The position numbers were made by a program, and so were the translations under genes. Shown here piece after piece: positions 3 through 11,303 of a DNA stretch of 64,000 nucleotides. Below the pieces are notes generated by a model. That model was not told where the DNA came from. It saw nothing but the letters and a program-made list of their open reading frames with translations, and made no database searches. Position 1 is the stretch's first letter, and every line of letters begins with the position of its first letter. Source of the DNA: Fluviicola sp. (GTDB taxonomy: Bacteria > Bacteroidota > Bacteroidia > Flavobacteriales_D > Crocinitomicaceae); the NCBI RefSeq assembly GCF_039596395.1, contig NZ_JBCNJT010000001.1:496001-560000 (forward strand), in the 5' to 3' direction.

Positions 3-221
3 GCTGCCCGTGATCACTTAATGATGAGTGTGAAATGGAAAGGTGAACGATTGGGAGTTGTTGAAATGAAACGCCATTATACGAATTACTTCAAAGGAAT
101 TGCCCATTTCAAGGAATACCGTACCAAGTTGGTGACTTCGTTTGATTTGCAGGAAATACTGGATACGCTTTCGTACCTGGAAGAAAACGCGGAAGAGTTT
201 ATTTTTTCGAACCCGGTTTGA
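3..221 (+). CDS. tRNA-dihydrouridine synthase, C-terminal end (5' truncated by window)
   Basis: The frame is open from the first bases of the window and stops at 219-221, so only the last 72 or so residues are present. The visible part has the typical Dus/NifR3 C-terminal helical segment: a HL-MSVKWKGER-LGV-EMKRHY-TNYFKG series followed by a KEYR-KLV run. In the family this domain helps bind tRNA, while the FMN-binding barrel lies upstream, outside the window. The enzyme reduces specific uridines in the tRNA D-loop with NAD(P)H. The internal ATG at 21 is not a real start, because the reading frame continues upstream of it. DusB-type is the likeliest subfamily, but the barrel is not visible. 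Confidence 0.8.
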   Translation, partial: AARDHLMMSVKWKGERLGVVEMKRHYTNYFKGIAHFKEYRTKLVTSFDLQEILDTLSYLEENAEEFIFSNPV

Positions 222-9943: not shown

Positions 9944-10008
9944 GGGATTGTTAAAGCCGTGTAAAAGGAATCAAAATGATTTTTTTTGGTTTTTTTTCGG
10001 GAAAATCC

Positions 10009-10038
10009 TTTGATAGAACGATGCATTTATTAATTTTG
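10009..10038 (+). promoter_or_regulatory. Bacteroidota-type promoter for tRNA-Ser
   Basis: TTTG at 10009-10012 and TAATTTTG at 10031-10038 are separated by 18 bp. This fits the Bacteroidota primary sigma consensus (-33 TTTG, -7 TAnnTTTG). The predicted start is about 40 bp before the tRNA. Confidence 0.75.
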
Positions 10039-10083
10039 CGCCTGTCTTAGGGATGCCTGAGGCGCGTTCTTTGCAAGAATTTT

Positions 10084-10170
10084 GGAGGGATGGGTGAGTG
10101 GCTGAAACCACCAGTTTGCTAAACTGACGTACTGGCAACGGTACCGCGAGTTCGAATCTCGCTCTCTCCG
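10084..10170 (+). tRNA. tRNA-Ser (anticodon GCT)
   Basis: An 87-nt cloverleaf. The acceptor GGAGGGA pairs with TCTCTCC, with discriminator G. The anticodon arm CAGTT-TGCTAAA-CTG gives GCT. There is a long variable arm and a T-loop GTTCGAATC. No CCA is encoded. It reads the AGC/AGU serine codons. Confidence 0.95.
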
Positions 10171-10190
10171 CAAAATTTTCTCTGAAGGGC

Positions 10191-10220
10191 TTGCAGAAGT
10201 GAAATAAGTAACTATCTTTG
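10191..10220 (+). promoter_or_regulatory. Promoter for tRNA-Pro
   Basis: TTG at 10191-10193 and an exact TAnnTTTG (TATCTTTG) at 10213-10220, 19 bp apart. It lies about 65 bp before the tRNA-Pro gene. Confidence 0.6.
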
Positions 10221-10286
10221 CACCCTCAAAACGGAGAAATCACTACTTCAAGAACGATTGAAGTAATTTGAAATAAAAGCCTAGTT

Positions 10287-10361
10287 CGGGGCGTAGCGTA
10301 GTCCGGTCATCGCGCCTGGTTTGGGACCAGGAGGTCGCAGGTTCGAATCCTGCCGCCCCGA
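10287..10361 (+). tRNA. tRNA-Pro (anticodon TGG)
   Basis: A cloverleaf with acceptor CGGGGCG/CGCCCCG and discriminator A. The anticodon stem-loop CCTGG-TTTGGGA-CCAGG gives TGG, and the T-loop is GTTCGAATC. No CCA is encoded. Confidence 0.95.
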
Positions 10362-10367
10362 CACAAG

Positions 10368-10398
10368 AAAAGGGGATGAGCAATCATCCCCTTTTTTG
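10368..10398 (+). terminator. Rho-independent terminator after tRNA-Pro
   Basis: The hairpin AAAAGGGGATGA/TCATCCCCTTTT has a 4-nt loop and is followed by a T run. Confidence 0.85.
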
Positions 10399-10488
10399 TT
10401 TTAGAACTTTAGGTATCGGCCCCGTACTCAGTCCCTACGTTACAGTCGGGAAGCAACTGCCAAAAGCGACTGAGATAAAAAAATATTA

Positions 10489-10562
10489 GGTCCCATAGCT
10501 CAGCTGGATAGAGCAACTGCCTTCTAAGCAGTAGGTCTTTGGTTCGAATCCAAATGGGATCA
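10489..10562 (+). tRNA. tRNA-Arg (anticodon TCT)
   Basis: 74 nt. The acceptor GGTCCCA pairs with TGGGATC, with discriminator A. The D-arm GCTC/GAGC, anticodon arm ACTGC-CTTCTAA-GCAGT (TCT) and T-arm with GTTCGAATC are all intact. A broken copy of this tRNA lies about 280 bp downstream, beyond the GIY-YIG gene. Confidence 0.95.
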
Positions 10563-10564
10563 CG

Positions 10565-10592
10565 AAAAAGTAGCACTAGTGCTACTTTTTTT
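10565..10592 (+). terminator. Terminator after tRNA-Arg
   Basis: The perfect palindrome AAAAAGTAGCACTAGTGCTA with a T tract lies directly after the tRNA and ends 15 bp before the GIY-YIG start codon. Confidence 0.85.
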
Positions 10593-10607
10593 GTTTATAT
10601 TCGTTTT

Positions 10608-10853
10608 ATGCCCTACTATTCATATGTACTCCGTTCGCTTAAGAACGGAATTATTTATAAAGGTTCAACAGAGAATATCGAACAACGTTTGCAATCACAT
10701 AATTCAGGATTGGTGAATTTCACCTCTAAACATATGCCTTGGGAATTAATTTTGTTTGAGGAGTTCAATACGCGTTCCGAAGCAATGAAACGAGAGAAAT
10801 GGTATAAAAGCGGTGTTGGACGAGAGTGGATTAAGGATCAATTGGTCCTGTAG
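10608..10853 (+). CDS. GIY-YIG family endonuclease, small (81 aa)
   Basis: 81 residues from the ATG at 10608, which is preferred over an in-frame start further upstream that would lie inside tRNA-Arg. The domain is complete but minimal: YSYVL...GIIYKGSTENIEQRLQSH, a HN-SG loop, 'FEEFNTRSEAMKREKWYK' and a C-terminal 'GREWIKDQLVL'. GIY is degenerate as 'YVL/IYKGS', as in the UvrC-like group common in Bacteroidota. The last codons (Leu-Val-Leu-stop) are the first bases of the broken tRNA-Arg copy, so the gene ends inside a tRNA remnant. This layout resembles a tRNA-targeting mobile nuclease, but its activity is unproven. Confidence 0.85.
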   Translation: MPYYSYVLRSLKNGIIYKGSTENIEQRLQSHNSGLVNFTSKHMPWELILFEEFNTRSEAMKREKWYKSGVGREWIKDQLVL

Positions 10854-10916
10854 CTCTGCTGGATGAAGCAATCCGCCGCGGCGGATAGGTCTTTGGTTCG
10901 AATCCAAATGGGGTCA
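10844..10916 (+). pseudogene. Degenerate copy of tRNA-Arg
   Basis: The 5' end (GGTCCTGTAGCTC), the D-loop (GCTGGAT) and the whole 3' part (AGGTCTTTGGTTCGAATCCAAATGGG-type) match tRNA-Arg(TCT) at 10489-10562. The anticodon arm has been replaced by a GC-rich palindrome (CCGCCGCGGCGG) with a 6-nt loop, and the D-stem is mispaired. It is unlikely to be a working tRNA. Confidence 0.85.
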
Positions 10917-10923
10917 CAAAAAG

Positions 10924-10956
10924 AAAAAGCGAACTACTACCGTAATTCGCTTTTTC
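10924..10956 (+). terminator. Hairpin terminator (repeat family, copy 1)
   Basis: AAAAAGCGAA and TTCGCTTTTT pair across a 13-nt loop. Related sequences occur at 18452-18488 and 21473-21504. Confidence 0.7.
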
Positions 10957-10958
10957 TT

Positions 10959-11100
10959 TTTGCCCTCAATACCCACTCTTACACTCGCTCTGTTTTTCAG
11001 GCTATCCTTCGGCTTTTCTGTCTTGTGAGACAGAGCCTCAGTCTTCACAAGCTATGCTTGCTCTTCTTTCAGGGAAGAGTGTGAGTTTTGAGTGTGGGAT
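10959..11100. repeat. Intergenic repeat, copy A (related to 19524-19640)
   Basis: About 120-140 bp, starting with a pyrimidine-rich CTTTTTG-CCCTCAATAC and containing GTCT-(T)GTGAGACAG, AGTCTTCACAA and CTTGCTCTTCTTTCAG blocks. These recur in the same order in copy B, 8.5 kb away. Both copies lie directly after a terminator hairpin. There is no coding potential. The rest of the 10.9-11.3 kb gap shows no gene. Confidence 0.7.
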
Positions 11101-11303
11101 TCATGTTCGAAGTTTCGATTGAACTTCCTCCTTTGAAGGAGGACCAAGGAGGATGGCGAAGCAAAATCTTCCTAAACCTTTGATTTTAGTGTGCTTTCCT
11201 ATCTAATCCAAAGTCGTTCGAATCTACTTGGGTTTTTCTCTGATATAATATCAGTTCATAATTTATTGCTAGTATTGAAAAGCATATAATAACATCGTTA
11301 AAA

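Follow-up and report, generated by a model that had tools for sequence, protein, structure and literature searches.

The 64,000 nucleotides of DNA analysed here (the window; positions 496001-560000, forward strand, of contig C1 of genome G000) belong to the 4.6-Mb genome of a Fluviicola sp. and contain, according to ARAGORN, a row of tRNA-Ser, tRNA-Pro and tRNA-Arg(TCT) genes. Behind the last of these a small GIY-YIG nuclease gene is enclosed between the intact tRNA-Arg gene and a second, broken copy of the same tRNA. How did a nuclease gene come to lie there, and why is the tRNA present twice? A sequence-only reading of the locus had proposed a cassette whose insertion at a tRNA gene is accompanied by regeneration or duplication of this tRNA, in the manner of homing elements. 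The history of the locus and of its homologues was studied by comparison of genomes.

Architecture of the tRNA-Arg locus

The remnants, linker, genes and terminators of the locus are all read on the plus strand. Most upstream lies a 5' half-copy of tRNA-Arg (10418-10461), a remnant recognized by its sequence and by upstream homologues in relatives, in which a decayed TCCC..GGGA hairpin (10432-10451) stands in place of the D-loop. It is joined by an AT-rich linker (10462-10488), similar to linkers that recur in relatives, to the intact and functional tRNA-Arg(TCT) at 10489-10563, which was found by ARAGORN and scored 70.2 bits with Rfam, and of which the 3' flank is not ancestral. Homologous 5' half-copies were observed upstream of tRNA-Arg in G001, G009, G007 and G011. 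At two further loci (L161 and L162) the intact tRNA-Arg and a GIY-YIG gene come after a tandem series of three such half-copies, which share a linker.

As had been read from the sequence, the nuclease gene begins after the terminator of tRNA-Arg(TCT). This terminator hairpin (10565-10590; folding energy -10.9 kcal/mol, z -3.64) is followed by an ORF of 81 aa that extends from the ATG at 10608 to a TAG (10608-10853). Its final codons, TTG GTC CTG TAG, overlap the broken tRNA-Arg copy (10844-10917) by 10 nt, which are the first 10 nt of that copy, again in agreement with the earlier reading. The broken copy was identified by ARAGORN, by Rfam and by alignment: ARAGORN called it 'tRNA-???', its Rfam score was 32.1 bits vs 70.2 for the intact gene, and alignment of the intact and the broken copy with their flanks gave a score of 49.5, with 16.5 as the highest value among 500 shuffles. 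The broken copy retains the tRNA at both ends, and its anticodon arm, CTGCCTTCTAAGCAG, has been swapped for the perfect palindrome TCCGCCGCGGCGGA (10872-10885, without strand), which is the GC palindrome noticed before. Two features had been overlooked in the sequence-only reading, i.e. the upstream 5' half-copy and the fact that the palindrome is a dispersed repeat. Behind the broken copy lie the ancestral terminator and the first part of the flank to the right of the tRNA-Arg locus (10918-10961; fold z -8.46), which match the flanks in G002 and G008. A terminator with the conserved arms of this region, AAAAAGAAAAAGCG..CGCTTTTTCTTTTTG, recurs widely in the genomes of the genus, also behind tRNA genes. 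No group I intron or other intron family was detected by Rfam in 10000-11200 at E up to 1. The same genome has a second small GIY-YIG gene (L002, C3:52650-52880), 161 bp downstream of tRNA-Val and on the same strand; this gene is of a different subfamily and has no tRNA remnant beside it.

Filled and empty sites at tRNA-Arg and tRNA-fMet

The kinship table comprised 13 genomes of the same genus, in 12 of which the Ser-Pro-Arg cluster or its tRNA-Arg was recovered. Within this set the nuclease in its intact arrangement is common only to the window and G001 (89% protein identity); among named genomes the nearest relative of the nuclease locus is found in a Fluviicola MAG (L160). The alignment of related genomes in search of empty tRNA-Arg loci, as the sequence-only reading had advised, revealed such loci in G008 and G002. 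In these two genomes, which have no nuclease there, tRNA-Arg is directly followed by the sequence that in the window stands behind the broken copy (scores 81 and 70, shuffles not above 18), whereas the sequence behind the intact tRNA-Arg of the window has no counterpart in them (scores 13 and 12). The match to the ancestral flank was weaker in G007 (32 vs 18), marginal in G009 (18 vs 15) and absent in the other four genomes compared. This implies that the flank behind the broken copy is ancestral, so that it is the broken copy that stands where tRNA-Arg originally was, the insert being made up of the intact tRNA together with its terminator and nuclease gene. The intact tRNA-Arg(TCT) was either brought in with this insert or regenerated by it. 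Another GIY-YIG gene (L008, G005:C87), which is truncated and lies after the last bases of tRNA-Arg, represents a decayed, separated copy; what lies downstream of it is similar to the right flank that tRNA-Arg has in G007.

A related nuclease is present at tRNA-fMet in G001 (L074), and the corresponding site is empty in three relatives (G013, G012 and G006). The parts 119-303 and 770-884 (or 858, 875) of the filled locus align to the continuous empty site, at -103..81 and 57..171 in the case of G013. Besides the nuclease gene, the insert of 466 bp includes a 3' portion of the tRNA that bears a hairpin. The direct repeat of the locus measures 25 bp, of which 18 nt are the end of the tRNA and 7 nt belong to the flank. 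At locus L105 the repeat is made up of the tRNA 3' half and the terminator, the latter being identical on either side of the nuclease gene. Occupied genomes still have an intact tRNA, next to remnants with altered arms, and the presence of the nuclease is sporadic among close relatives. A conserved target that exists in an occupied and an empty form, as expected of a homing gene, is found at the tRNA-Arg as well as at the tRNA-fMet locus, and these alleles uphold the proposal of insertion at a tRNA gene with regeneration or duplication of the tRNA.

A single-domain nuclease under purifying selection

The protein belongs to the GIY-YIG superfamily (PF01541, Pfam 4.2e-16), its fold being evident from the sequence, and has both Tyr-containing motifs of this superfamily as well as the Arg and the Glu of the active site. 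Y6, Y17, G19, R27, H31 and E63 are invariant in an alignment of 18 homologues; the dead active site that was named beforehand as speaking against a nuclease cassette is not what was found. Comparison with the nuclease of G001 gave a dN of 0.066 vs a dS of 1.86, which indicates that the gene is under purifying selection. The Pfam domain spans residues 3-68 of the 81 aa, and neither a further domain nor a separate DNA-binding domain is present. The protein is of the UPF0213-like type, with a lone GIY-YIG domain of about 80-100 aa: with profile A1 the structures 1ywl/1zg2 were matched at E 2.6e-14 and 6.2e-13, and 1ywl, 1zg2 and SLX1 are the closest solved structures by sequence. Matches to the homing-nuclease families in NCBIfam and PHROG were weak and below cut-offs. 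A phage origin of the gene was considered and rejected, as phage records and viral contigs yielded no match to the nuclease; a phage or viral carrier was not found among them either.

Linkage to tRNA genes throughout the Bacteroidota

Homologues were collected from the same order, from 296 Bacteroidota genomes (198 positive) and from named genomes; the analysis covered 237 near-full-length genes at 202 loci. They were drawn by best match, so that the percentages given here describe the sampled homologues and not all GIY-YIG genes. An intact tRNA or tmRNA was present at no more than 1 kb from 193 of the 237 nuclease genes, in all cases on the same strand and never on the opposite one; by our estimate about 7% of the positions in the window lie within 1 kb of a tRNA. 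At least 10 tRNA isotypes are involved. A partial tRNA copy of the same isotype was found beside the nuclease in 118 of 185 cases (64%) vs 9 of 2405 isotype-swapped tests. Generic similarity among tRNAs as the source of the degenerate copies was rejected on the basis of this control. The duplicated tRNA thus matches the isotype, and the arrangement without tRNA duplication, which would have argued against the sequence-only reading, was not what the loci presented.

Which part of the tRNA is left behind depends on the position of the intact gene. With the intact tRNA upstream of the nuclease gene (the first class), the remnant is a 3' part; 65 of 84 such remnants reach the exact 3' end and 6 of 84 include the 5' end. 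With the intact tRNA downstream (the second class), it is a 5' part, which includes the 5' end in 20 of 24 cases and reaches the 3' end in none of the 24. The boundaries of the remnants are centred on the region from D-arm to anticodon. Together with the 25-bp repeat, the remnants that reach the exact 3' end provide the direct repeat of the 3' end and the restored tRNA that are typical of tRNA islands. The gap between the nuclease gene and a downstream tRNA measured at most 20 bp in 19 of 42 cases, which makes it probable that transcription reaches such a tRNA by way of the nuclease gene. Nuclease genes and half-tRNAs also form tandem arrays, in which the units follow each other at about 315-365 bp; in G344 the copies are identical. 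In these units the GIY-YIG gene is the sole ORF and there is no integrase; in some arrays of 5' remnants the repeated unit is devoid of the nuclease.

A separate subfamily of small GIY-YIG genes is located downstream of tmRNA, on the same strand (L017, L018, L022, L027, L028, L107 and L109); no tmRNA remnants were found with this subfamily. Other stable RNAs (5S, SRP, RNase P) were rejected as hosts, since Rfam searches of 20 loci returned only tRNA and tmRNA. Broken copies are called tRNA-??? or tRNA-Ser(act) by tRNA finders (window 10844-10917; L006 1737-1819), and in draft genomes the tRNA-nuclease loci are frequently where a contig breaks off. Because of these miscalls and contig ends, databases probably under-report and misreport the broken copies.

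Nuclease lineages follow the tRNA isotype

In a tree of 146 nucleases the isotype changed 39 times vs at least 96 times in 200 shuffles (mean 102), and the host family changed 70 times. As protein ends might be encoded by tRNA sequence, the proteins were also trimmed of these ends; 43 isotype changes were then counted vs a shuffled minimum of 90, and an artefact of tRNA-encoded ends was rejected. For each of 129 coded loci, which represent 22 families, the closest nuclease outside its own family was determined; in 90 cases it was of the same isotype, where 12 were expected. This number was recomputed without the loci that have no family code, and an artefact of counting the latter as another family was rejected as well. 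In a looser set of 107 cross-family pairs, including some loci without family code, 80 had no homologous flanking ORF and 27 shared one, a comparison limited to the short flanks available. About a quarter of the cross-family pairs thus share flanking genes, which suggests that part of the isotype pattern is due to vertical descent. Judged by these relationships, the nuclease goes with its tRNA more than with its neighbourhood or its host, with some vertical component. The isotype-tied lineages and the same-isotype partial copies give additional support to the cassette reading.

Hairpins in the displaced copies

The palindrome TCCGCCGCGGCGGA occurs 7 times in the genome of the window, 56 times in G001 and not at all in several other genomes. 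It is a dispersed repeat at the level of the genus, and a one-off mutation as its origin was rejected. Remnant segments that lie between two tRNA stretches carried terminal perfect stems of at least 6 in 59 of 115 cases vs 0.9% in shuffles. Hairpins replace an arm in Val (28|46), Met (37|48), Gly (25|34) and Asp (50|59) remnants, and are put in a loop without loss of tRNA bases in Arg (22|23) and Ser (35|36). The place of the hairpin varies with the isotype, its sequence with the genome. Covariation in the hairpin stems was set aside as evidence because the cores were preselected for pairing.

Hairpins of the kinds seen in the remnants also occur scattered over the genomes. Perfect TCC..GGA hairpins (TCCCGA-N-TCGGGA, TCCGCC-N-GGCGGA) were dispersed far above the reversed-pattern control, often in loops of other hairpins or terminators (L273, L274, L279, L280 and L242). 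Over the 296 genomes their number correlated with that of the tRNA-linked GIY-YIG genes at a rho of 0.55, vs -0.07 for the reversed-pattern control and with 0/1000 in a permutation within families, a correlation that is weak within most single families and to which hairpins in the nuclease loci themselves contribute. A partnership between hairpins and nuclease is a lead rather than demonstrated.

Discussion

Insertion at tRNA genes, a regenerated intact tRNA, matched half-copies, tandem amplification, isotype lineages and selection on the nuclease can all be read from the genome comparisons, and from these we infer the homing behaviour of the cassette. On balance we consider it probable that the locus is a minimal homing-like mobile element, of which the single-domain GIY-YIG nuclease would be the only protein, which is isotype specific and regenerates the tRNA it disrupts. 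The nuclease would nick or cut the matching tRNA gene, presumably in the region from D-arm to anticodon to which the remnant boundaries point. Recombination between tRNA halves would then install or amplify the unit, and as the unit carries a replacement half the essential tRNA would be regenerated. The hairpins that take the place of an arm in the displaced copy plausibly abolish the cut site or make it harder for recombination to remove the element; their role is the least certain step.

The loci could also be miniature integrative islands, small circles integrated at tRNA genes by a recombinase acting in trans, with the tRNA halves as att sites and the nuclease as cargo. With its restored tRNA, its cargo, the 3' part that is displaced and a direct repeat of 25 bp, the first class indeed has the geometry of a tRNA island, but no further ORF is present in the units of 315-365 bp, in the second class it is 5' parts that are duplicated, and an isotype-specific nuclease tree is needless for cargo, which makes this origin unlikely in our view. 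Strict placement on the same strand, the short gaps that probably cause the downstream tRNA to be read through the nuclease gene, and hairpin-forming inserts kept at isotype-specific places in the remnants could alternatively reflect a function at the RNA level, in which the nuclease or the tRNA-like flanks serve tRNA maturation, quality control or as decoys and co-transcription explains the fixed strand. Such a role is hard to reconcile with the sporadic occurrence among close relatives, the empty alleles and the tandem amplification, and a normal tRNA is kept in occupied and empty genomes alike; we give it little credence.

Passive linkage, where tRNA genes duplicate and decay on their own and a small nuclease gene happens to survive there, draws on the recombination-prone nature of tRNA loci and on the 5'-remnant arrays in which the repeated unit lacks the nuclease. 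The isotype-specific nuclease tree, the matched remnants in 64% of cases, the complete lack of opposite-strand placement and the existence of empty and filled alleles render it very improbable. The preferred reading is therefore still a homing-like element that regenerates its target.

The nearest known system is SegB. In phage T6 this GIY-YIG nuclease is needed in active form for tandem amplification of a tRNA-Tyr/segB unit, and microhomology exists between the 5' end of the tRNA and the 3' end of segB (PMC13096335); for T4, SegB has been catalogued among the free-standing homing enzymes, with a location in the tRNA region (PMC2988022). The Bacteroidota loci have in common with it a GIY-YIG gene beside tRNAs, tandem units of tRNA and nuclease, and the microhomology between nuclease 3' end and tRNA 5' end. 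They differ in that they reside in bacterial chromosomes, encode a single 81-aa domain, have one lineage per isotype and contain split half-copies of the host tRNA with hairpins in the remnants; a sequence relationship of the nuclease to phage entries was not found. Known homing enzymes have a DNA-binding domain, whereas the 81-aa nuclease has none. For this reason, and because cleavage by it is so far a prediction, it was not filed as a member of the SegB family.

Islands that integrate in tRNA genes resemble the element in the insertion at a tRNA gene, the restored tRNA and the displaced fragment with direct repeat at the far end. The element differs from them by an insert of only about 0.3-0.5 kb and by a mirror-image class that displaces 5' halves, and since its unit has no integrase it was not classified as a tRNA island. 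Single-domain GIY-YIG proteins of the UPF0213/YazA-YhbQ type and SLX1 are alike in the size of the lone catalytic domain; we know of no tie of these to tRNA genes. Group I introns with GIY-YIG nucleases in tRNA genes (PMC3984707) share the invasion of tRNA genes and nuclease-driven spread, but in the element the tRNA is restored at the DNA level beside the insert and no intron was found at the locus. REP hairpins with RAYT transposases are similar in being short dispersed hairpins whose number goes with a nuclease-type gene; the fold of the enzyme differs, and the partnership proposed here is a candidate.

The reports of tRNA-linked GIY-YIG genes that were met in the open-access literature concern phages and organelles, and a description of a tRNA-linked bacterial GIY-YIG element was not found in that literature (subscription papers and preprints were outside its scope). 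The element is provisionally regarded as undescribed so far. More tentatively, and with considerable doubt, it may represent a new class of mobile elements: nuclease-only cassettes that break an essential tRNA gene and supply the replacement half, i.e. natural cleave-and-rescue cassettes, with isotype-specific lineages across the phylum, that work with small hairpins which replace arms of the displaced tRNA and are dispersed over the genome, in analogy to REP hairpins and their transposase but with a GIY-YIG enzyme.

With 0.3-0.5 kb and an 81-aa enzyme this would be the smallest homing-like element known to us, and a natural selfish gene that breaks an essential tRNA gene while carrying its own rescue. 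It would be the parallel, in cells and throughout a phylum, to the SegB-tRNA amplification that was reported for phage in 2026. It may also explain an annotation puzzle, namely small GIY-YIG frames that run into tRNA sequence with broken or miscalled tRNAs adjoining, and it makes testable how isotype specificity could arise from a lone GIY-YIG domain.
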